DNA of 46,382 nt from an uncultured Alphaproteobacteria bacterium (GTDB lineage: Bacteria > Pseudomonadota > Alphaproteobacteria > HIMB59 > GCA-002718135): NCBI GenBank assembly GCA_902630465.1, contig CACOVJ010000007.1, forward strand, positions 1-46,382. The letters are read 5' to 3'. The stretch's first letter is position 1, and each line of letters begins with the position of its first letter. Of the stretch, positions 18,518 to 30,081 are shown piece by piece. The notes under the pieces were generated by a model. It had not been told where the DNA came from. It saw nothing but the letters and a program-made list of their open reading frames with translations, and ran no database searches. The position numbers and the translations under genes were made by a program.

Positions 18518-19025
18518 ATTCCAAGTTAAAATTTATTTCATTAAGTTTATTTTTTATATCATTTGTTATATTTATAGAATTAGAGGCGATTAAATAACTC
18601 GTTGAATCTAAGACTAAATCTATATTATTATTTTTAGCATATTTTTCTGTCAAAACAATTATTTCTTGAAGTATTAATTTTCTCATTTTTATAATTTCAT
18701 CCTGATAGTGCATATTGAAAGAATCAACTAAATTAGTAAATTTACCTAATTCAATATTATAGTTGTTTATTAAATTATTAATTTCAGTTTCATTTAATAC
18801 AATTTTAGACTTATCTATCTCTGATTTTATTTTATTTAATTTAATTTCATTTTCCTTGATGATGTTAGAATTAATTTTTTGATTATTTTCAATTTCTAAT
18901 AAAAATTCTTTATAGTATTTGTTACTATCTAAAAGTTTTTCGATATCTAATACTGCAATATTAGTGGATAAAGTAGTTTTAGAATATAAAATAATAAAAA
19001 ATACTAATATAAATTTTTTTATCAA
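18495..19025 (-). CDS. skp: OmpH/Skp-family periplasmic chaperone
   Basis: Periplasmic holdase that carries unfolded outer-membrane proteins to the BAM complex. 176 residues: a signal peptide (about 1-20, KKFILVFFIILYS core), a short core strand IAVLDIEKLLDSN, a long charged coiled coil (about 35-125), and a closing segment KNNIDLVLDSTSYLIAS that is typical of the OmpH family. The start is TTG at 19025, overlapping the bamA stop as TTGA. No other start keeps the signal peptide, so TTG is probably real. The bamA-skp-lpxD order is the classic one. Confidence 0.9.
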   Translation of the reverse strand: MIKKFILVFFIILYSKTTLSTNIAVLDIEKLLDSNKYYKEFLLEIENNQKINSNIIKENEIKLNKIKSEIDKSKIVLNETEINNLINNYNIELGKFTNLVDSFNMHYQDEIIKMRKLILQEIIVLTEKYAKNNNIDLVLDSTSYLIASNSINITNDIKNKLNEINFNLEFESFEKN

Positions 19026-21307
19026 TCTAAATTACCTATGGAAAATAGGAACATTCTTTTAATATCATATTCTTCGTCTTGGATTGGGAAACCCCAAGCA
19101 AAACCAATTGGTCCAATTGCAGAGTAATATTTAAAACCAAAGCCAACTGATGATCTAATAGTATTATCATTTTTTGTTGGTTTTGTTTTATTTTCCCATA
19201 CCAAACCGTAATCATTAAAAATATTCACATAAAATGGAAATTGTGAGTCTTTTGATAGCTCTCTTGAAATATCAAATTTTGTTACAACCAGATTATTACC
19301 ACCGACATAAGATGATCTTGAATTTCTAGGGCCCGCACCAAAAGTATCAAATCCCCGAAGCCACCTACCGCCCAGAGAGAATTTATCATCTGTTAATATA
19401 TCATTATTACTTAAAGAAATAATATTCCCAACTCTAGCTTGAAAGGAAAATATATTTTTATCAATTTTATTATATTTTTTATAAGTTATAATGTTCTTGA
19501 ATGTTCCATTAGAAGAACTTGTAGGTGTTTCTATAGAATTAATATAGCTTACAAAAGTTCCATTTTGAGGCAAAACTAGGGAGTTAAGAGTATTATATGA
19601 TAGTCTATTATTCAATACAAAACTTACATTTTCACCAGATGAATTATTTATAGTTGAAGCAACAGTTGAAGCATTGGTAATTTTATAATCTTTTATTATA
19701 TAATCTAAATTTATAGCGTGATTTATTAATGGACTAACTTTATATGATATGCCTATTCCTGTCGACAATGTATCAAGTTTATAGGAACTTGCTACTGAAA
19801 AGTCTTCTTGTTTTAATTGAGCCTTGTAAGTAACATTTACATCATTTACATAATTTATTCTATCTGTTGTTTCAAAAGTAAATTCAGTTTTATCATCTGT
19901 TGTATTAATAAGTGTTTTTAAAGATCTTCCTGTGCCATAAAAATTTCTCTCACTTAATCCAGCTACAACACCAAAGCCCTCCAAAGTACCTATAGATAGA
20001 CCAACATTAAATGTTCCAGTTTGTTTTTCATCAACTATTATCTGAATTTCAGATAGCTCATTATCTATTTCTTTTTCGATAATCTCAACTGACTTAAATA
20101 AGCCTAGTGAATTTAGTTTTTTTTGAATATTTTTAAGTTGAGATTTATGATAAGCATCTCCTTCAACAAGTTTTAGCTCTCTTCTAATGACTTTATCAAA
20201 GGTTCTTGTATTTCCATATATGTTTATTTGTTTTGCATATTTAGGCTCTATTTGATAGATTTCATAAACAATGGAGACATGTTTCAAATCTTTTTTTTCC
20301 AATACATTAATTTCAAAAAATTGAATACCATCTTTCATGATTAAATCAGAAATATCAGCATTCAATTTATTAATTTCTGTTAGAGAATAAATATTATTTT
20401 GGCTAATTGTATTATTTATCAAGTTTTTAATATTGCTTTGTAAATCAGGATTCAGCATTTTATTTTTATCTGTTAAGGTAATATTTTTATATTGATAAAC
20501 TTCCCCCTCAATAATTTTAAAATATATATTTACTTTATTAGATTTTAAGTACTCTACAGAAAAATCTACCTTTATATCAATGTAGCCTTTGTTTATATAA
20601 TATTTTTTTATTGCGACTAAATCGTTTTCAATAATATATTTTTTATAATTATTATTAGCAAATATATTGGTTAATGTTTTTGTTTTGGTTTTTATTACAC
20701 TTTTTAATTCTTCTTTGTCTATTGTATCGTTTCCACTAAAATATATTTTTGCTACTTTAGTTATGTTTCCTTCTTTAAATTCAAAATACAGATCAGCGGT
20801 ATTAGTTTCTTTATATAATTTTGATGTAAAAGTAATTTGTGAATTATTATATCCAAAAGATTTATATAAATTTTGAAGTTCTGATATAAATTCATTTATT
20901 GTAATAGGATTTAAATTAAAAATTTTGAACTCATTTGTAAGTTTACTTAACTCTTCATCATCAAATCTATCATTATTTTTAAAATATATTTTATTAATAT
21001 TTGGATATTCTTTTATATTAATAATATATGTATTTTCATTTACTTCTACAGATACCTGTTCAAATAATTGAGAGTTATCTAAAGTTTTTATCAAATAATT
21101 AGAATATTTATCTGAGATTTCACTCGGAGGATCTTTTAACAAAGAAAGGATAACATCTTTATCTGTAAAATTATTTCCATTTATCTCAATCTTAATATTA
21201 TTTGAGATTACTTTATTAGAAATTGAAACAATAATTAATAGACTTATGATAAATTTAGAATATTGTCTTAATTTTATTTTCAACTTTTTCATGAAATTTA
21301 ATAACAT
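19022..21307 (-). CDS. bamA: BamA, outer-membrane protein assembly factor
   Basis: Central Omp85 subunit of the BAM complex, which inserts beta-barrels into the outer membrane. Up to 761 residues: a signal peptide (about 6-34), five POTRA domains (about 35-430) and a C-terminal 16-strand barrel with the GGRWLRGFDTFGAGPR (VRGF-type) motif and GPIGFAWGFPI near the end. The true start may be the ATG at 21292, which gives a cleaner signal peptide beginning KKLKIKLRQ. Either start overlaps dxr (38 or 53 bases). The last residues FSIGNLD end in Asp, where most BamA proteins end in Phe or another aromatic. rseP is missing between dxr and bamA. Confidence 0.95.
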   Translation of the reverse strand: MLLNFMKKLKIKLRQYSKFIISLLIIVSISNKVISNNIKIEINGNNFTDKDVILSLLKDPPSEISDKYSNYLIKTLDNSQLFEQVSVEVNENTYIINIKEYPNINKIYFKNNDRFDDEELSKLTNEFKIFNLNPITINEFISELQNLYKSFGYNNSQITFTSKLYKETNTADLYFEFKEGNITKVAKIYFSGNDTIDKEELKSVIKTKTKTLTNIFANNNYKKYIIENDLVAIKKYYINKGYIDIKVDFSVEYLKSNKVNIYFKIIEGEVYQYKNITLTDKNKMLNPDLQSNIKNLINNTISQNNIYSLTEINKLNADISDLIMKDGIQFFEINVLEKKDLKHVSIVYEIYQIEPKYAKQINIYGNTRTFDKVIRRELKLVEGDAYHKSQLKNIQKKLNSLGLFKSVEIIEKEIDNELSEIQIIVDEKQTGTFNVGLSIGTLEGFGVVAGLSERNFYGTGRSLKTLINTTDDKTEFTFETTDRINYVNDVNVTYKAQLKQEDFSVASSYKLDTLSTGIGISYKVSPLINHAINLDYIIKDYKITNASTVASTINNSSGENVSFVLNNRLSYNTLNSLVLPQNGTFVSYINSIETPTSSSNGTFKNIITYKKYNKIDKNIFSFQARVGNIISLSNNDILTDDKFSLGGRWLRGFDTFGAGPRNSRSSYVGGNNLVVTKFDISRELSKDSQFPFYVNIFNDYGLVWENKTKPTKNDNTIRSSVGFGFKYYSAIGPIGFAWGFPIQDEEYDIKRMFLFSIGNLD

Positions 21308-22409
21308 CTTTAATAGTCTTTAATGAAGAATACAAATTGAAAGAAACAACTTTTTTAATTATCTTGTAAATATCTGTATATTTAATTAGATTATTCTTAA
21401 ACATATTAACAGCATATTCGTTACCAACATTAAATTTTATCAAATTAGAAGGCTTAGACTTATCCATTTTTTTGAAAATATTAATTATAGGAAACATTTT
21501 GGGATCAACTTTGTAAAACGTTAATTCAGAATAACTTTTAAAATATAATCGGTTATATTTTTTCTTTGGATTAATTTTTGATAGCATTAAAAAATTATGT
21601 AGTGGAATAATCATGTCATTTTTGAATAAATTGAATTGAGTTGTATAGTTTTCTTTTTCTATTATTGAATGAACTAGCGCTTTTGGATGTATTAAAATAT
21701 CAATTTTTTCATAAGGAATACTAAAAAGATAATGAGCTTCTATTATCTCCAAACACTTATTTACTAATGTTGCAGAGTCAATACTATTTTTATATCCCAT
21801 TTTCCATTTAGGATGATTAATTGCTTGTTTGAAAGATACATTTTTTAATTTATTAAAATTTTTTCCAAAAAAAGGTCCTCCTGAAGCGGTGATGATAATT
21901 TTTTTTAAATTATCTTTTAAATTACCATTATTAAGTGTTTCAAATAATGAATAATGCTCTGAGTCTAGTGGAAAAATATTTGTTTTTTTAAAATATTTAT
22001 TATTTTTAAATATATGTCCGGCAGATACTATAGCTTCTTTATTAACAATACCTAAATTGCTTGTATTTTTAATAATGTTTTCTAAATAATAAAGTGATTT
22101 ATATCCTGAAATAGCTAAAACTGAAAAGTCTGATTTAGAATTATTAAGGTATTTTTTTAATTTATTAAAAGTTAAAATCTTAGTTTTGTTAGTTAATTGT
22201 TTTTTAAATATTTTTTTTAATTTATTTAAAGCATTTGTATCATTTAAATGTACATAATTAGGTTTGTAAATTTTAATCTGTTTTAAGATTAAATTTATAT
22301 TAGTGTTGCCACACAATAAATTAACTCTTATATCAGGAAAACTTTTAGATATGATTTTTAGGGTTTTTTTTCCTATTTCACCAGTTGATCCATATATGTT
22401 TATATTCAT
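21255..22409 (-). CDS. dxr: 1-deoxy-D-xylulose 5-phosphate reductoisomerase
   Basis: Makes methylerythritol 4-phosphate, the committed step of the non-mevalonate isoprenoid pathway that feeds UppS. The 384 residues are full length. The NADPH-binding start is INIYGSTGEIGKKTL, and the central catalytic region includes VNKEAIVSAG, PLDSEHYSLFE, TASGGPF and HPKWKMGYKNSIDSATLVNKCLEIIEAH. The domains are Lys/Asn-rich but intact. It overlaps cdsA by ATGA and runs 38-53 bases into bamA. The usual order uppS-cdsA-dxr-rseP-bamA is kept except that rseP is absent. Confidence 0.96.
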   Translation of the reverse strand: MNINIYGSTGEIGKKTLKIISKSFPDIRVNLLCGNTNINLILKQIKIYKPNYVHLNDTNALNKLKKIFKKQLTNKTKILTFNKLKKYLNNSKSDFSVLAISGYKSLYYLENIIKNTSNLGIVNKEAIVSAGHIFKNNKYFKKTNIFPLDSEHYSLFETLNNGNLKDNLKKIIITASGGPFFGKNFNKLKNVSFKQAINHPKWKMGYKNSIDSATLVNKCLEIIEAHYLFSIPYEKIDILIHPKALVHSIIEKENYTTQFNLFKNDMIIPLHNFLMLSKINPKKKYNRLYFKSYSELTFYKVDPKMFPIINIFKKMDKSKPSNLIKFNVGNEYAVNMFKNNLIKYTDIYKIIKKVVSFNLYSSLKTIKDVIKFHEKVENKIKTIF

Positions 22410-23029
22410 ATAAACTTTATTATAAAACTAAATGTTATTAATGACAGAATAAAACTGTCAAACCTATCAAAAAAACCTCCATGACCAGGTAAGATATTAC
22501 TTGAATTTTTAATATTATTTAATCTTTTAAAAATTGATTCAATCATATCACCAAAAAAAGCAGAAACGATTATTGCCAAAGTAAATATTATTATTTGCGG
22601 AGTAAGTAACAAATTAAATAAGTAACAAAAAAATATGCTCGCAGAAACAGAAAAACAAATACCTCCAATTAATCCTTCCAGTGTCTTATTAGGACTTATT
22701 TTATGAGATATTTTTCTCCTGCCATAAAATTTACCTACTAAGTAAGAAAAGATATCAAATGTTATTATAATTGTAACCATTAGATTAAAGATTAAATATA
22801 ATGAAGGATCAAATTTATGAAAATAAATAGAAGAAAATGATAATAATAAATATATTATTATAGTTATTCTATAGTTTTTAAAATTAAATAAAACTTCAAA
22901 GCTAATTATAATATAAATAATTAAAACTAATAATAATACATATTTAAAGCTGTAAACTACTAATAAAAAATAAATAAATAAAAAAAAAACTGAAATCAGA
23001 ATTCTAGTAAATAAATCTTTATAATCCAT
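22406..23029 (-). CDS. cdsA: Phosphatidate cytidylyltransferase
   Basis: Makes CDP-diacylglycerol from CTP and phosphatidic acid, the branch point to all membrane phospholipids. An integral membrane protein of 207 residues, shorter than the usual 260-285, with about six hydrophobic helices. The CDP-diglyceride synthase signature is complete in the C-terminal third: ISPNKTLEGLIGG, then GDMIESIFKR and GHGGFFDRFDS with the metal-binding Asp pair. The shortening affects the N-terminal helices. It overlaps uppS by 11 bases and dxr by four (ATGA). Confidence 0.94.
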   Translation of the reverse strand: MDYKDLFTRILISVFFLFIYFLLVVYSFKYVLLLVLIIYIIISFEVLFNFKNYRITIIIYLLLSFSSIYFHKFDPSLYLIFNLMVTIIITFDIFSYLVGKFYGRRKISHKISPNKTLEGLIGGICFSVSASIFFCYLFNLLLTPQIIIFTLAIIVSAFFGDMIESIFKRLNNIKNSSNILPGHGGFFDRFDSFILSLITFSFIIKFI

Positions 23030-23705
23030 ATTTTCTATTTATTTTTAAGTAATCGTTAACAATTTTTTCAAATTCGTTAGTAGAAAATTCTGGCCATAAA
23101 GTATCAGTAAAAAATAATTCTGTGTATGTTAAGTTATACATAATAAAATTACTTAGTCTCTTATAACCACCTGTTCTTATTAAAACATCTGGATCATCAC
23201 AGTATCCTAAATAAAATAATTTTCTTATTTGTTCATTATTTTCTATATCAATATCATTGATGCTACTTTTAAACTTTTTTAAAACTTCCTTAATTTCTTC
23301 TTTAAAACCGTAATTAAATGCAATATTAAGATTTAGACTTTTATTATTATTTGATATTTTTTCAGCTTTATCAAACATATCAATAACTTTAGCTGGTAAA
23401 TTGATCCTTGATCCAAAAATATTAATTTTAATATTCTGCTTATTGATTAATTCATCAATTAATTGACTGAAATTATTATAAATAATTTCATATATTAAAT
23501 TAATTGAAGACCTTTTGTAATTCTCTGAAGACAAAGTGAATAGTGTAACATTTGGAATATTTAGTCTTAAACAACAATCAATAATTTTTTTTATATTATC
23601 AAAACCTTTTTTGTAGCCAGTTTTACTATTTAAATTATTTTTTTTAGCCCATCTTTTATTACCATCTAAAATTAAAGCTACATGACTTAAACTATTATCA
23701 GCCAA
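23019..23705 (-). CDS. uppS: Undecaprenyl (di-trans,poly-cis) diphosphate synthase
   Basis: Cis-prenyltransferase that makes the C55 lipid carrier for peptidoglycan and LPS sugars. The 228 residues match the family. The catalytic Asp14 lies in VALILDGNKRWAKKNN; SSENYKRS, NIAFNYG and the C-terminal DPDVLIRTGGYKRLSNF and WPEF are present. The only workable start is TTG at 23705, two bases after the frr stop; no ATG lies before the catalytic motif. It overlaps cdsA by 11 bases. Together with dxr and cdsA this forms the lipid-precursor part of the cluster. Confidence 0.95.
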   Translation of the reverse strand: MADNSLSHVALILDGNKRWAKKNNLNSKTGYKKGFDNIKKIIDCCLRLNIPNVTLFTLSSENYKRSSINLIYEIIYNNFSQLIDELINKQNIKINIFGSRINLPAKVIDMFDKAEKISNNNKSLNLNIAFNYGFKEEIKEVLKKFKSSINDIDIENNEQIRKLFYLGYCDDPDVLIRTGGYKRLSNFIMYNLTYTELFFTDTLWPEFSTNEFEKIVNDYLKINRKYGL

Positions 23706-23707
23706 AC

Positions 23708-24250
23708 TTAGACTTTCAAAATTTCGCTTCTTTTATCGTCAAGAATATTTTCAATTTTTTTTATATTGTCATCAGTTTCTTTTTGAATGTTGTTAATAAT
23801 TTTTTTTAAATCATCCTCTGAATAATTATTTTCTTTTTTTTCTTTTTTATTAATCTCAATATAATCTCTACGAATATTTCTAATGGCTATTTTAGCGTTC
23901 TCAGCATACTCAGATGCAATTTTTGTAATTTCTTTTCTTCTTTCCTCACTTAGTTTAGGAATTGGTAATCGTATTAGTTGCCCATCAACCTGGGGATTTA
24001 TACCTAAGTTTGAATCTGTTATTGCACCTTCAATTTGTTTAATCAAACTATTGTCCCATACCTGGATTGTAATTGTACTTGAATCTGGAATAGATATATT
24101 TCCTAGCTGGTTGATTGGTGTGTTTGAACCATAAGCTTGAATCACAATATTGTCCAACATTGATGGATTAGCTCTTGATGTTCTTAGTGAATTTAATTCT
24201 TTTTCAAAATGTGCTATTGATGCATTCATTTTTTTTGTAATTTCTTCCAT
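23708..24250 (-). CDS. frr: Ribosome recycling factor
   Basis: Splits the post-termination ribosome with EF-G. The 180 residues are slightly short of the E. coli 185. Family marks are LNSLRTSRANPSMLDNI, the central beta domain with YGSNTPINQLGNISIPD, and the C-terminal helices with PIPKLSEERRKEI and AIRNIRRD. The ATG at 24250 follows the pyrH stop by one base, and the stop lies two bases before the uppS TTG. The pyrH-frr-uppS order is standard. Confidence 0.97.
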   Translation of the reverse strand: MEEITKKMNASIAHFEKELNSLRTSRANPSMLDNIVIQAYGSNTPINQLGNISIPDSSTITIQVWDNSLIKQIEGAITDSNLGINPQVDGQLIRLPIPKLSEERRKEITKIASEYAENAKIAIRNIRRDYIEINKKEKKENNYSEDDLKKIINNIQKETDDNIKKIENILDDKRSEILKV

Positions 24251-24251
24251 A

Positions 24252-24953
24252 TCAGCTAATTTTACTATATGATCCTTTCCTATTCAAAACATTAATTAGT
24301 GAATTTGGTTTAAAGATATTGGTAATATAAATTGGAATATTGGTATCTTTTGCCAAACTTATGGCAGTTAAATCCATAACTTTTAAATTTTTGTTGATAA
24401 CTTGAGTGTAGGATATTTTTTTAATCAATTTTGCTTTTGGATTTTTTACTGGATCACTCTCATAAATACCATCAACTTTTGTTGCTTTAATTATGAAATT
24501 ACAATCCAGTTCTGATGCTCTTAGTGAGGCGGCAGTATCTGTTGAGAAAAATGGGTTTCCTGTTCCTGCAGCAAAAATTACAATACGATTTTTTTCTAAA
24601 TGTCTTATTGCTCTTCTCCTTATATATGGCTCAGCTATTTGGGACATTATTATTGCAGATTGTACTCTAGTCGGAACATTTATTTTTTCTAGACTACTTT
24701 GAAGTGATAAAGCATTCATAACGGTTGCAAGCATTCCCATATAATCAGAAGTAGATCGATCTATTCCTTCAGAAGCACCTTTAATACCTCTAAAAATATT
24801 ACCTCCACCAATAATAATACAAATCTGGTATTTTTTTTTGTAGACCTTTTTTATCTCATTTGTAATTTTATTTATTGTAGATACATCAATACCATAGTTT
24901 GAATCACCCATTAATGATTCACCTGATATCTTAATTAATATTCTTTTTATCAT
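24252..24953 (-). CDS. pyrH: UMP kinase
   Basis: Phosphorylates UMP to UDP, supplying all pyrimidine nucleotides; it is the bacterial hexameric amino-acid-kinase-fold enzyme. The 233 residues are typical. ILIKISGESLMG opens the ATP site. IIGGGNIFRG and the UMP-binding TSDYMGMLATVMNA are intact, as are GTGNPFFSTDTAA and KATKVDGIYESDP. It follows tsf by two bases and precedes frr by one, forming the classic rpsB-tsf-pyrH-frr series. Confidence 0.97.
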   Translation of the reverse strand: MIKRILIKISGESLMGDSNYGIDVSTINKITNEIKKVYKKKYQICIIIGGGNIFRGIKGASEGIDRSTSDYMGMLATVMNALSLQSSLEKINVPTRVQSAIIMSQIAEPYIRRRAIRHLEKNRIVIFAAGTGNPFFSTDTAASLRASELDCNFIIKATKVDGIYESDPVKNPKAKLIKKISYTQVINKNLKVMDLTAISLAKDTNIPIYITNIFKPNSLINVLNRKGSYSKIS

Positions 24954-24955
24954 AA

Positions 24956-25813
24956 CTATAAACTAAAAATATTATATGAAATAATTTTATAATCATATTT
25001 TTCCTTATAATCAGAAATAATTTGGCTAACTGTTTTTTCCTGATCTAGAATAAAGTTCTGATTTAATAAAGTAACCTCAGAATAGTACTTTTTCATCTTT
25101 CCTTCTAAAATTTTATCAACAATATTTTCTGGTTTACCAGAGCTTAAGATTAATTCTTTTTGAATTTTTTTCTCCTTTTCAATTAAATTAACGTCTAAAT
25201 CTTTTATGTCTAGAGCATCTGGTTTCATTGCTGCAACATGCATACAAATATTTTTTGATAGAGTTTTAATCTTATCATCATTATTTTTTGTTTCATAATT
25301 AATGAGCGAAATAATTTTACCGATGTTTTTCTTATAACTATTATGAACGTAGTAAGAATTAAAAGATTTATGATTTTCTATTATTAATAAATCATTTAAT
25401 ATCAGGTTCTCTCCAATTTGCGCTATCTTATTTTTTAAATAATTTGCAATAGTTTCATCCTTAAATTTAAGATTTAATAAATTGTCCTTTGTTAGACTAG
25501 CATTATCGTTTTCAATTATTACATTTCCAATTTCATCTAAAAAATTTAAGAATGTATCACTTTTTGCTGCAAAGTCTGTTTCGCTATTAATTTTTAGTAG
25601 CGCTGTAATATTGTCATTAGAGTATATACCTATTGCACCTTCATTTGCTTCTCTTGATGATTTTTTTGAAGCTTTGGCAAGACCTTTTTTTCTTAAATAT
25701 TCTATTGCTTCATCTAAACTATTATTATTTTCGCTTAGTGCTTTTTTACAATCAAGAAAACCTGCACCTGTTTTACTTCTTAAATCTTTAATGAGATTCA
25801 TTATATCTGACAT
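24956..25813 (-). CDS. tsf: Elongation factor Ts
   Basis: Nucleotide exchange factor for EF-Tu. The 285 residues are typical. The N-terminal UBA-like domain holds IKDLRSKTGAGFLDCKKAL; the TDFAAKSDTF motif (near residue 80) is the part of the core that touches the EF-Tu magnesium site. The dimerisation subdomains that follow are more diverged and Lys/Asn-rich. A good Shine-Dalgarno sequence (AGGAG) lies about 8 bases before the ATG at 25813. A 30-base spacer separates it from rpsB, with which it is surely co-transcribed. Confidence 0.97.
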   Translation of the reverse strand: MSDIMNLIKDLRSKTGAGFLDCKKALSENNNSLDEAIEYLRKKGLAKASKKSSREANEGAIGIYSNDNITALLKINSETDFAAKSDTFLNFLDEIGNVIIENDNASLTKDNLLNLKFKDETIANYLKNKIAQIGENLILNDLLIIENHKSFNSYYVHNSYKKNIGKIISLINYETKNNDDKIKTLSKNICMHVAAMKPDALDIKDLDVNLIEKEKKIQKELILSSGKPENIVDKILEGKMKKYYSEVTLLNQNFILDQEKTVSQIISDYKEKYDYKIISYNIFSL

Positions 25814-25843
25814 TAATATCTCCTATATAAAAAAGTTGTAATT

Positions 25844-26584
25844 TTATCTAGTTTCTTCTTCTTTAACAGAACCTTCTTCTGACTTTTTTTCTTCAAAGTT
25901 TACTGCATCCTCAATAGTTTCAGAAAAATATTTTTTATATAAATTTATAGACCTTAATGCATCATCATTGCCTGGGATCACATAATCTATTAAATCGGGA
26001 TCAGCATTTGAGTCAACAATACCAATAACAGGAATATTTAATTTCTTTGCTTCAAGAACGGCTATCTTATCTTTTAAGACATCAAAAATTACTAATAAAT
26101 CTGGTTTTCCATTTAATTTACGTATACCTCCTATATTTAGTTCAAGCTTTTGTTTTTCTCTTGAAATATCTAGTAACTCTTTTTTTGATAAACTTTTTGA
26201 TATGTTTTCATCATTAGTAAATGTTTCAATTTCATCTAGTCTTTTGATTGAATTTGAAATAGTATTCCAATTTGTAAGAGTGCCACCCAACCATCTTTTA
26301 TTAACATAAAAATTATCATTTATATTTGCTAAATCTTTAACAGTTTGTTCACATTGTTTTTTAGTACCAACAAAAAGTACTTTACCAGACTTACTAATAG
26401 TTTCGTGAATTTTTGTTAACGCAATATTTAATAAATCAACTGTAATTCTTAAGTCGAATATATGTATGTTATTTCTTACTCCATATATATATTCTTTCAT
26501 CTTTGGGTTCCATCTTCTGACATTATGACCAAAATGAACCCCAGATTCTAATAAGTCCTCTATTTTAATTTCAGGTAAATTCAT
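25844..26584 (-). CDS. rpsB: 30S ribosomal protein S2
   Basis: Small-subunit ribosomal protein. The 246 residues are full length, with LLESGVHFGHNVRRWNPKMKEYIYG near the N-terminus (signature 1) followed by the coiled-coil hairpin, then KRWLGGTLTNW and PVIGIVDSNADPDLIDYVIPGNDDA. The tail is acidic (EEKKSEEGSVKEEE). It follows the largest spacer in the window, which carries a possible structured leader. The strong GGAGG four bases before the ATG at 26584 fixes the start. S2 represses its own operon in several bacteria, and the leader would suit that here. Confidence 0.97.
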   Translation of the reverse strand: MNLPEIKIEDLLESGVHFGHNVRRWNPKMKEYIYGVRNNIHIFDLRITVDLLNIALTKIHETISKSGKVLFVGTKKQCEQTVKDLANINDNFYVNKRWLGGTLTNWNTISNSIKRLDEIETFTNDENISKSLSKKELLDISREKQKLELNIGGIRKLNGKPDLLVIFDVLKDKIAVLEAKKLNIPVIGIVDSNADPDLIDYVIPGNDDALRSINLYKKYFSETIEDAVNFEEKKSEEGSVKEEETR

Positions 26585-26679
26585 AATTCCTCCGGTTGTA
26601 CCTCCACAGAAACAAAAAACACCGGTTTTTTCTGTGTGCTAGTTATTAAAATAGGGTAATATTACAAAAATGATTAATT
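26585..26679 (-). promoter_or_regulatory. rpsB leader: hairpin with possible pseudoknot at the ribosome-binding site
   Basis: On the minus strand an 8-bp stem forms between CACAGAAA (26636-26629) and TTTCTGTG (26612-26605). Its loop contains ACCGGT (26626-26621), and CCGGU in the loop can pair with ACCGG at 26596-26592, which overlaps the GGAGG Shine-Dalgarno sequence (26593-26589). That would form a pseudoknot hiding the ribosome-binding site. A second GGAGG lies at 26605-26601. Known S2 leaders in gammaproteobacteria also use a pseudoknot, so feedback control by S2 or Ts is a plausible inference. The stem could instead end dnaE transcripts, but no U-run directly follows it. Confidence 0.5.
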
Positions 26680-29600
26680 TCAAGTAATTTCTATTGAATA
26701 ATCAATTAAATTTGATTTTTTTAAGTCATCTAATTTTTTATAAGATTTTATAGAATATTTATTAAAATCAAAATTTATGAGTTTATTTTCAATATTAATA
26801 AACAAATCAATTTTATTTATTTTAGACAAAGGTTTGATCTCAAAAATATTGTCTTTTTCTTTTACAATGTTCTCTATTGATGAATAGATACTGAACTTTA
26901 AATTATTTTCAATGAAAATATTTTCCAAAAATGAGACATTTTTTATAACAAAACGATTATCAGAACTAGTTCTTAAGATATCAATATCAAAAATTAAAAT
27001 GTTTCCCTCTTTTAATAATGATCTATATTTGTACAAGTTTTCACCAAATATTGTTAATTCGTATTGCGTATTTATTTCAGAAACAGTTATAAAGGCATAT
27101 TTTCTTCCATCTTTATTTGATCTTTCTTTAATATCAAGAATAGCACCGCAGACTTTTGATGTACTAATTTCATTATTACTGGCAATATCTTTAAATAATT
27201 TTATATTTTTATATTCAAAAAATAGTTTTGGATAATGGTTCAGAGGATGATCAGAAAAATAAAACCCTATAACATCTAGCTCATTTGTTAAAGTTTCTAT
27301 ATTATTCCATTTATCATATTTTTGATAAAATAAATTTTCATCATTAAATGACAATTCATTTTCTTCAAATAGTAGATCTTGATTTGATATTTTTTCTGCA
27401 CCAAATAAATCAACGAACTTAGTAACATTATAAAATAGCTTAGCTCTATTTGTCTCTATGCTATCAAAAGCTCCAGCTTGTATCAACTTTTCAAGTTGCC
27501 TTTTATTTATGACATCATTTTTAACTCTTTTCATAAAATCAATTATATTTTTAAATTTTCCATTAATTTTTCTTTCTTGAATCATGTTAGAAATAGATTT
27601 AATACCTACTCCTTTGATTGCTCCTAATCCAAATCTAATAGACTTAGAATTATTGTTTATTTCAATTGTGAATAAAGATTCAGAATAATTAATATCGGGT
27701 TTAAGAAAATTTATATTTAATCTCTCAATTTCATTTTTAAGCAAAATTATTTTATCTGTTCTATCTATTGAAAAATTTAATGTTGCAGTAATAAATTCAT
27801 GAGGAAAATTAGCTTTTAAATATGCTGTTTGATATGAAATTAATGCATATGCTGCTGCATGACTTTTATTGAAACCATAACCAGCAAACTTATCAACTAA
27901 ATCAAAAATTTTTGAAGCCTCCTTTTTGCTAATTTTGTTTTGAATAGCACCCTCAATAAATCTAGATTTTTGCATGTCCATTTCTTTTTGTATTTTCTTA
28001 CCCATAGCCCTTCTTAATAAATCCGCCTCACCTAATGAATAATTTGATAATACTTGTGCAATTTGCATTACCTGCTCTTGGTAAACAATGATACCATAGG
28101 TCTCTTTTAAAACATTCTCTAACATGGAGTGTAGATATTTAATTTCTTCACGTCCATGCTTTCTATTACAAAATGAAGGTATGTTATCCATTGGGCCAGG
28201 TCTAAATAATGCAACTACAGCAATTATTTCTTCAAATTTATCTGGCTGTAATTGACGAAGTACACTACCCATACCATTACTTTCTAATTGAAATATACCA
28301 ACTGTATCTCCCCTACTTAATTGTTCATATGTTTTTTTATCATTTAAAGGAATATTATTTATTAAAAAATTATTATTATCTTTTGTTATAAGTTTTACAC
28401 AATCATCAATTATTGACAAAGTGGTTAAGCCAAGAAAATCAAATTTAATTAGTCCTGCCTCTTCAACATATTTCATAGTAAATTGCGTAGCGTTAGTATT
28501 TGTATTCTGATCTTTGTATAATGGAACTACTTTAGATAGTTTTTCATGCCCAATAACAACACCTGCGGCATGAGTTGATGCATGTCTATGTGAACCTTCG
28601 ATTTTAAGACTTACATCAATAATATTTGAAATTCTTTCATCACTGCTAATTCTCTCTTGTAAACTTCTTTCTGATTTAATTGACTCACTTAATGAAAGAG
28701 GATTTGAAGGATTAAATGGTATTAACTTTGCAAAAGAATCTACTTCACCGTAAGGAACTTCTAAGACGCGTCCAATATCTCTAACTGCAGCTCTTGAAGC
28801 AAGAGTACCAAAAGTAATTATATGCGCAACACATTCAGATCCATATTTTTTATTAACATATTCGATTACTTCATCTCTTCTGGTTTGGCAGAAATCTATA
28901 TCAAAATCGGGCATAGAAACTCGTTCTGGATTTAGAAATCTCTCAAATAATAAATCGTACTCTAATGGGTCTAAATCAGTTATACCTAATGACCAAGCAA
29001 CTAAACTACCTGCGCCAGACCCTCTTCCAGGACCAACAGGAATAGATTGAGCTTTAGCCCAATTAACAAAATCAGCAACAATTAAAAAATATCCAGCAAA
29101 ACCCATTCTTATAATTATTTGATTTTCATAATTTAACCTATCGATATACTTTTGAGAGTTTTTAATATTCATTTGTTTAATTTTTTTGTTTAATCCTTGA
29201 ACTGATAAATCAAGCAAGTAATCCTCAGCTGATAAATTTTTATCATTTTTAAATTCAGGTAGTTTAGGTTTAGTTGACTCAGGAAAAAAACTGCATGAAA
29301 GAGAAACATTTAAATTATTTTGAATTATTTCTGGAATATCGATAAAATTTAAATTCATTTCTTCACTTGTTTTGAAATAAATGTTTTCATTAGATGTAAT
29401 TCTTTGAGAGTTATTTATAGTAGATTTTTGAGCTATACATAAAAGAGCATCATGCGCTGAGTAATCTTCTTTATTTGCATATTTTATATTATTTGACCCA
29501 ATAAGCGAAATATCAAATTTTTTTGATAGATTTATAAATTCTTTTTCAAATAAATCTATATTTTGATCATTAATTCTTTGAATTTCGAAAAGAAAATTTT

Positions 29601-30081
29601 CATTAAATATTTTTTTTAAATTATTTATTAATTCATTAATTTCCTTTTTTTTATTATCTTTTTTTAATAATAAAAGGGGGTTGAATTCACCTCCTATATA
29701 ACAAAACAATCCCTTAGAAAAATTCTCAATTTGTGATAATTTTATTCCAATATTACTTGTTTCATTGAGATGAGAGAGTGAGCTTAGTTCTAAAAGATTT
29801 TTGTATCCTAATTCATTTTTGACTAAAAAGGTAACTTGAGAAATTTGATCATTTACTATTACATCCAATAGATTAATTGTACTGCCAATAATTGGCTGAA
29901 TATTATTTTTAATACATTCTTTAGCGAATTCAAACACTCCAAACATATTATTATTATCGGTAATAGCTATAGCGGGCATATTATTTTTTTTTGCTAAATT
30001 TACTAAATTTTCAATTTTAAGCGTACTTTCAGATAATGAGTATGATGATAAAGTTCTTAAATGAATAAAAGGCTTATTCAT
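26680..30081 (-). CDS. dnaE: DNA polymerase III alpha subunit
   Basis: Catalytic subunit of the replicative polymerase. At 1133 residues it is near the usual 1160. Domains in order: PHP (about 1-270), polymerase palm and thumb with PDFDIDF carrying two catalytic Asp near residue 392 and LIKFDFLGLTTL carrying the third, fingers with FRPGPMDNIP and GIIVYQEQVM, helix-hairpin-helix, and OB fold with KVCGAILDIKE. The PHP domain begins HLRTLSSYSL where many have HLRVHSDYS, so a metal-binding His is missing. Proofreading is therefore expected from a separate DnaQ. It overlaps lolD by 8 bases (ATGAATAA). Confidence 0.97.
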   Translation of the reverse strand: MNKPFIHLRTLSSYSLSESTLKIENLVNLAKKNNMPAIAITDNNNMFGVFEFAKECIKNNIQPIIGSTINLLDVIVNDQISQVTFLVKNELGYKNLLELSSLSHLNETSNIGIKLSQIENFSKGLFCYIGGEFNPLLLLKKDNKKKEINELINNLKKIFNENFLFEIQRINDQNIDLFEKEFINLSKKFDISLIGSNNIKYANKEDYSAHDALLCIAQKSTINNSQRITSNENIYFKTSEEMNLNFIDIPEIIQNNLNVSLSCSFFPESTKPKLPEFKNDKNLSAEDYLLDLSVQGLNKKIKQMNIKNSQKYIDRLNYENQIIIRMGFAGYFLIVADFVNWAKAQSIPVGPGRGSGAGSLVAWSLGITDLDPLEYDLLFERFLNPERVSMPDFDIDFCQTRRDEVIEYVNKKYGSECVAHIITFGTLASRAAVRDIGRVLEVPYGEVDSFAKLIPFNPSNPLSLSESIKSERSLQERISSDERISNIIDVSLKIEGSHRHASTHAAGVVIGHEKLSKVVPLYKDQNTNTNATQFTMKYVEEAGLIKFDFLGLTTLSIIDDCVKLITKDNNNFLINNIPLNDKKTYEQLSRGDTVGIFQLESNGMGSVLRQLQPDKFEEIIAVVALFRPGPMDNIPSFCNRKHGREEIKYLHSMLENVLKETYGIIVYQEQVMQIAQVLSNYSLGEADLLRRAMGKKIQKEMDMQKSRFIEGAIQNKISKKEASKIFDLVDKFAGYGFNKSHAAAYALISYQTAYLKANFPHEFITATLNFSIDRTDKIILLKNEIERLNINFLKPDINYSESLFTIEINNNSKSIRFGLGAIKGVGIKSISNMIQERKINGKFKNIIDFMKRVKNDVINKRQLEKLIQAGAFDSIETNRAKLFYNVTKFVDLFGAEKISNQDLLFEENELSFNDENLFYQKYDKWNNIETLTNELDVIGFYFSDHPLNHYPKLFFEYKNIKLFKDIASNNEISTSKVCGAILDIKERSNKDGRKYAFITVSEINTQYELTIFGENLYKYRSLLKEGNILIFDIDILRTSSDNRFVIKNVSFLENIFIENNLKFSIYSSIENIVKEKDNIFEIKPLSKINKIDLFINIENKLINFDFNKYSIKSYKKLDDLKKSNLIDYSIEIT

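Follow-up and report, generated by a model that had tools for sequence, protein, structure and literature searches.

A compact homologue of the proteobacterial S2 leader overlaps the ribosome-binding site of rpsB in the alphaproteobacterial order HIMB59

In E. coli, the ribosomal protein uS2, together with bS1, represses translation of rpsB-tsf via the leader of the mRNA, and the ribosome-binding site was reported to lie outside the S2 operator (review PMC10931766). This leader is covered by the Rfam model RF00127 (t44), which detects it with 83.5 bits. The rpsB motif (RF01815) was described by Meyer et al. (2009) and was first found in Ca. Pelagibacter ubique, where it follows dnaE (PMC2704228). 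It consists of P1, a pseudoknot formed by J2-3 and the 3' extension that follows P1, and the optional parts P2 and P3, which are short or absent in some members. Most Alpha- and Gammaproteobacteria were reported to have it (PMC2704228).

The DNA analyzed here (the window) is a stretch of 46,382 nucleotides from an uncultured alphaproteobacterium of the order HIMB59 (contig CACOVJ010000007.1). On its minus strand, rpsB for ribosomal protein S2 (25844-26584, 246 aa; TIGR01011, 305 bits) is followed in the same gene run by tsf for elongation factor Ts (24956-25813; TIGR00116, 239.5 bits) and preceded by dnaE (26680-30081; NF004226, 1309 bits). The gene order dnaE-rpsB is also found in Ca. Pelagibacter ubique (PMC2704228). 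The dnaE-rpsB spacer measures 95 bases, and no other gap in the window between two ORFs of at least 60 aa is as long (next 69), which agrees with an earlier note on this DNA; an apparent gap of 1,098 bases is in fact an ORF, probably dxr.

On the minus strand, the spacer reads ...CUAGCA-CACAGAAA-AAA-CCGGU-GUUUUUUG-UUUCUGUG-GAGGUACA-ACCGG-AGGAAUU-AUG. The earlier note had placed in it an 8-bp hairpin whose loop can pair with a strand overlapping the Shine-Dalgarno sequence, and the coordinates of both helices proved exact. The 5' arm of P1 (CACAGAAA, 26629-26636) forms eight Watson-Crick pairs with the 3' arm (UUUCUGUG, 26605-26612), and the loop strand CCGGU (26621-26625), corresponding to J2-3 of the rpsB motif, pairs with ACCGG (26592-26596). 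P1 and this pseudoknot 3' strand are connected by the linker GAGGUACA (26597-26604), which together with G26605 makes up the junction element GGAGG that is conserved in the motif. The 3' strand ends 7 bases from the AUG of rpsB at 26584 and has G26593 and G26592 in common with the Shine-Dalgarno sequence GGAGG (26589-26593).

GGAGG occurs twice, at 26605-26601 and at 26593-26589, 12 bases apart. The two copies had been thought to flank the pseudoknot; positions and spacing are correct, but the copies flank the linker before the pseudoknot 3' strand and not the pseudoknot as a whole. A role for the two copies as such was not borne out, since 39 of 74 relatives have GGGAG in place of the second, and the first belongs to the motif and is absent in the sister family. 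Only the second can be the Shine-Dalgarno sequence. As a second or decoy Shine-Dalgarno sequence the first copy was rejected, because it lies 16 bases from the AUG here, and in E. coli it is conserved at a long distance from the start codon.

With the members of RF01815, the leader shares the location upstream of rpsB after dnaE, P1, the 5-bp J2-3 pseudoknot, the GGAGG junction and ACCGG. It differs in that P2 and P3 are absent, that it falls below Rfam detection and that the pseudoknot strand lies inside the Shine-Dalgarno sequence. The E. coli leader has the same order of parts, namely P1 (CACGUAUC/GAUACGUG), then GAGG and the pseudoknot strand, but its pseudoknot is GGGGU/ACCCC, the P2/P3 region is longer, the Shine-Dalgarno sequence is separate and the pseudoknot ends 24 bases before the AUG. 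Compact H-type pseudoknots near the ribosome-binding site are also known, for example, from the SAM-V and SAM-II riboswitches of marine Alphaproteobacteria. These are similar to the present leader as short pseudoknots near a start codon but differ in gene, sequence and presumed ligand; the likeness is an analogy only.

For a comparative analysis, rpsB was located in 148 of 200 relatives. The leaders comprised 74 of the same family (own leader included) and 21 of its sister family within the order. About 60 came from further Alphaproteobacteria, and E. coli and 50 others found with the t44 model were added. An alignment of 208 leaders was made with MAFFT by sequence only, and covariation of 3,916 column pairs was scored by a G-test with APC. 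As a null, the R-scape scheme was reimplemented: along a FastTree tree, the substitutions were redistributed over the columns (30 sets). The top nine of all column pairs belong to the two helices: seven of the eight pairs of P1 (26636/26605 to 26630/26611) and, of the five in the pseudoknot, 26625/26592 and 26624/26593 (empirical E below 1/30). None of the null pairs in the 30 sets reached these scores (empirical E = 0). The three remaining pairs of the pseudoknot are nearly invariant. The pair in tenth place, 26640/26627, belongs to neither helix, yet it exceeds the null, which is thus imperfect; its signal looks like a split in composition that sets the own family apart from all other leaders.

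The P1 pairs vary via A-U, G-C, C-G and U-A. When the partner strand is moved by 1-3 columns, the proportion of paired cells drops from 94% to at most 62% for P1 and from 98.3% to at most 62% for the pseudoknot. CCGGU/ACCGG is found in most Alphaproteobacteria, double changes in several of their lineages lead to CUGGU/ACCAG (L155, L158), UCGGU/ACCGA (L156, L185) and CCGAU/AUCGG (L187), and E. coli and its gammaproteobacterial relatives carry GGGGU/ACCCC. Four alphaproteobacterial rows were flagged as broken; three of them (L165, L167, L046) are one-base alignment shifts and read by eye as CCGGU/ACCGG or UCGGU/ACCGA. P1, a CCGGU-type loop strand (one UCGGU) and ACCGG are present in all 95 leaders of the order, and no close relative has lost either helix, the top P1 pair being mismatched in 2 of the 74 same-family leaders. 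Within the own family alone, no significant covarying pair was obtained because there is too little variation; the pseudoknot is invariant there, so that close relatives by themselves speak neither for nor against it. The earlier note had suggested looking for covariation in the two helices, and judged by the compensatory changes across the whole set, both helices are real.

It had also been left open whether the structure is homologous to the pseudoknotted S2 leader of gammaproteobacteria or convergent. The proposed search with Rfam leader models did not detect the leader: RF01815 gave no match at the rpsB leader of the window, neither at the gathering score (40 bits) nor at E 10. This model matches 180 of 289 Alphaproteobacteria, none of them in the leader's own order, most likely because it expects P2 and P3, which are both lost here. 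To avoid circularity, a model (R1) was built without any leader of the order, from the core of 27 leaders that are largely RF01815 matches adjoining rpsB, with the variable interior removed. R1 matches 26638-26590 on the minus strand (26.4 bits, E 0.0012; window E 5.5e-5), which is the sole match in the 1.02-Mb genome at E up to 10, and in genus mates the R1 match also lies directly upstream of rpsB. The leader combines a position directly upstream of rpsB (rpsB-tsf) with a covarying P1, a five-pair J2-3 pseudoknot and an R1 match. Covariation and the cross-family match together show, from sequence comparison, that it is a homologue of the proteobacterial rpsB motif (RF01815; RF00127/t44 in E. 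coli), which settles the question in favor of homology. It is a real and evolutionarily conserved element that is already known in kind; the sole fresh point is its compact layout, with the ribosome-binding site partly inside the folded RNA.

The leaders of the own family have 4 bases from P1 to the loop strand and 8 bases after that strand; the corresponding medians are 32 and 22 for other Alphaproteobacteria and 13 and 34 for the gammaproteobacterial set. With such short loops and no stems in them, P2 and P3 are gone. In the 95 leaders of the order, which belong to two families and share descent and hence are not 95 independent events, the pseudoknot 3' strand ACCGG is invariant. In every case, it stops 4-10 bases short of the AUG and contributes to the Shine-Dalgarno sequence (ACCGGAGG, ACCGGGAG, ACCGGAGA). 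For 38 other Alphaproteobacteria the distance from this strand to the AUG is 8-25 bases, and 34 of 39 leaders (these and E. coli) have a separate AGGA-type Shine-Dalgarno sequence between pseudoknot and AUG. One Pelagibacteraceae leader (L048) has 8 bases between pseudoknot and AUG and no Shine-Dalgarno sequence. The GGAGG junction is found in 73 of the 74 same-family leaders and in 80 other alpha- and gammaproteobacterial leaders, with GGCGG in 15 more. It is nearly universal except in the sister family (L190-L210), where it is absent together with the CACAC 5' element. This family keeps P1 and the pseudoknot, with a P1 sequence unrelated to that of the own family.

Seen as a single sequence, the leader is far less conspicuous. 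Of the dinucleotide shuffles of the spacer, 2.3% also yield a stem of 8 bp and some 5-bp pairing of its loop with the tail, and nested MFE folding alone misses P1 (z 0.13), as would be expected from chance pairing in an A/T-rich spacer. The same layout with at least 4 G/C in the second helix is found in 0.055% of the shuffles, and an 8-bp stem with a G/C-rich 5-bp second helix occurs only here in the whole window on both strands; this rarity alone is suggestive only. Chance is refuted by the covariation, the cross-family model match also speaks against it, and its probability is negligible. As nested folding misses P1, the evidence for the leader structure is comparative and not thermodynamic. 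For the last 57 bases, an alternative nested fold has -10.8 kcal/mol compared to -9.9 kcal/mol for the P1-constrained fold, which leaves out the pseudoknot helix with about -6.6 kcal/mol. P1 might otherwise be read at the DNA level, as an inverted repeat to which a transcription factor binds as its operator; a promoter may lie in the same spacer. We regard an operator as very improbable, since the pairing of P1 is kept through all pair types, with no fixed operator sequence, and goes together with that of another, non-nested helix which overlaps the ribosome-binding site. Transcription attenuation was rejected as well, because no terminator-like site is present in 26560-26800.

It remains to be weighed what the conserved structure does. 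S2 autorepression was demonstrated for the E. coli rpsB-tsf leader (PMC10931766); for the lineage of the window we infer S2 binding. Surplus S2, probably together with S1, would bind the leader and stabilize the pseudoknot, which would lower translation of rpsB and, via coupling to rpsB, that of tsf. The S1 gene rpsA is present in the genome, and a 16S 3' end with the anti-Shine-Dalgarno sequence CCUCC was found in genus mates. Since the pseudoknot 3' strand shares two Shine-Dalgarno bases and lies 7 bases from the AUG, its full pairing and that of the anti-Shine-Dalgarno sequence are mutually exclusive, so that a pseudoknot locked over the ribosome-binding site would repress by masking it directly. 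Against masking, the AGGA directly behind the pseudoknot strand might still act as a weak Shine-Dalgarno sequence. As the ribosome-binding site is reported to lie outside the operator in E. coli, masking would be a putative mechanism specific to the compact layout, and it appears to be the likeliest one in the order. We consider it quite probable that the leader is an S2-leader homologue cut to a bare H-type pseudoknot, with S2 repression by direct masking. Alternatively, S2 control might work as is supposed for E. coli, with bound S2 (and S1) blocking initiation or hastening mRNA decay and with the overlap as a by-product of spacer shortening. E. coli is S2-repressed with its Shine-Dalgarno sequence outside the pseudoknot, as it is in most Alphaproteobacteria, and genome shortening by itself would bring the start codon nearer. 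However, the overlap is found in 95 of 95 leaders and the Shine-Dalgarno sequence is made from the ACCGG strand instead of being a separate neighbor, which leaves this explanation possible but rather doubtful. Loss of S2 control in the streamlined lineage, with an inherited structure whose conserved parts serve as translation-initiation leader only, would agree with the loss of P2 and P3 and with the additional absence of the GGAGG junction and the CACAC element in the sister family. It is unlikely, since P1 and the pseudoknot are still paired although the P1 sequence is fully different between the two families, and compensatory changes in P1 are found within each of them (L145; U-A to C-G in 5 of 21 leaders of the sister family).

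Tentatively, and with somewhat less than even confidence, we suggest that the S2 operator of the order has merged with the ribosome-binding site, the minimal two-helix pseudoknot acting as a direct lock and the E. coli operator acting at a distance. If so, this would be the smallest natural S2-responsive RNA seen in the comparison. The comparison suggests that the core conserved in S2 leaders consists of P1, the GGAGG linker and the pseudoknot, so that fewer features come into question for recognition by S2. At about 50 bases and with the Shine-Dalgarno sequence inside, the present leader is an easy test object for S2 autorepression. There is also a gap in Rfam, as the motif is carried by a whole order of marine bacteria and missed. 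The Pelagibacteraceae rpsB leader mentioned above (L048, 1925-2009) reaches 30.4 bits with RF01815, under the 40-bit cut-off, even though Pelagibacter is where the motif was first described; the threshold thus loses compact members.

Further observations concern transcription. TTGAAA upstream was rejected as a -35 box, as it overlaps the stop codon of dnaE and lies 11 bases from the TATAAT of the relatives. Of the 74 same-family leaders, 39 have a perfect TATAAT that precedes the CACACAG element by 24-25 bases; after shuffling, TATAAT anywhere is expected in about 14 of 74. The window itself has TAATAT-like letters only, at 26655-26670, 24-25 bases upstream of P1. The spacer may hold an own rpsB promoter without recognizable -35 box. 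The gene run rpsB-tsf-pyrH-frr continues with ORFs which read as uppS-cdsA-dxr-bamA (19022-26584). Its genes overlap or are separated by at most 30 bases, and the ORF read as dxr (21255-22409) shares 53 bases with the next gene.
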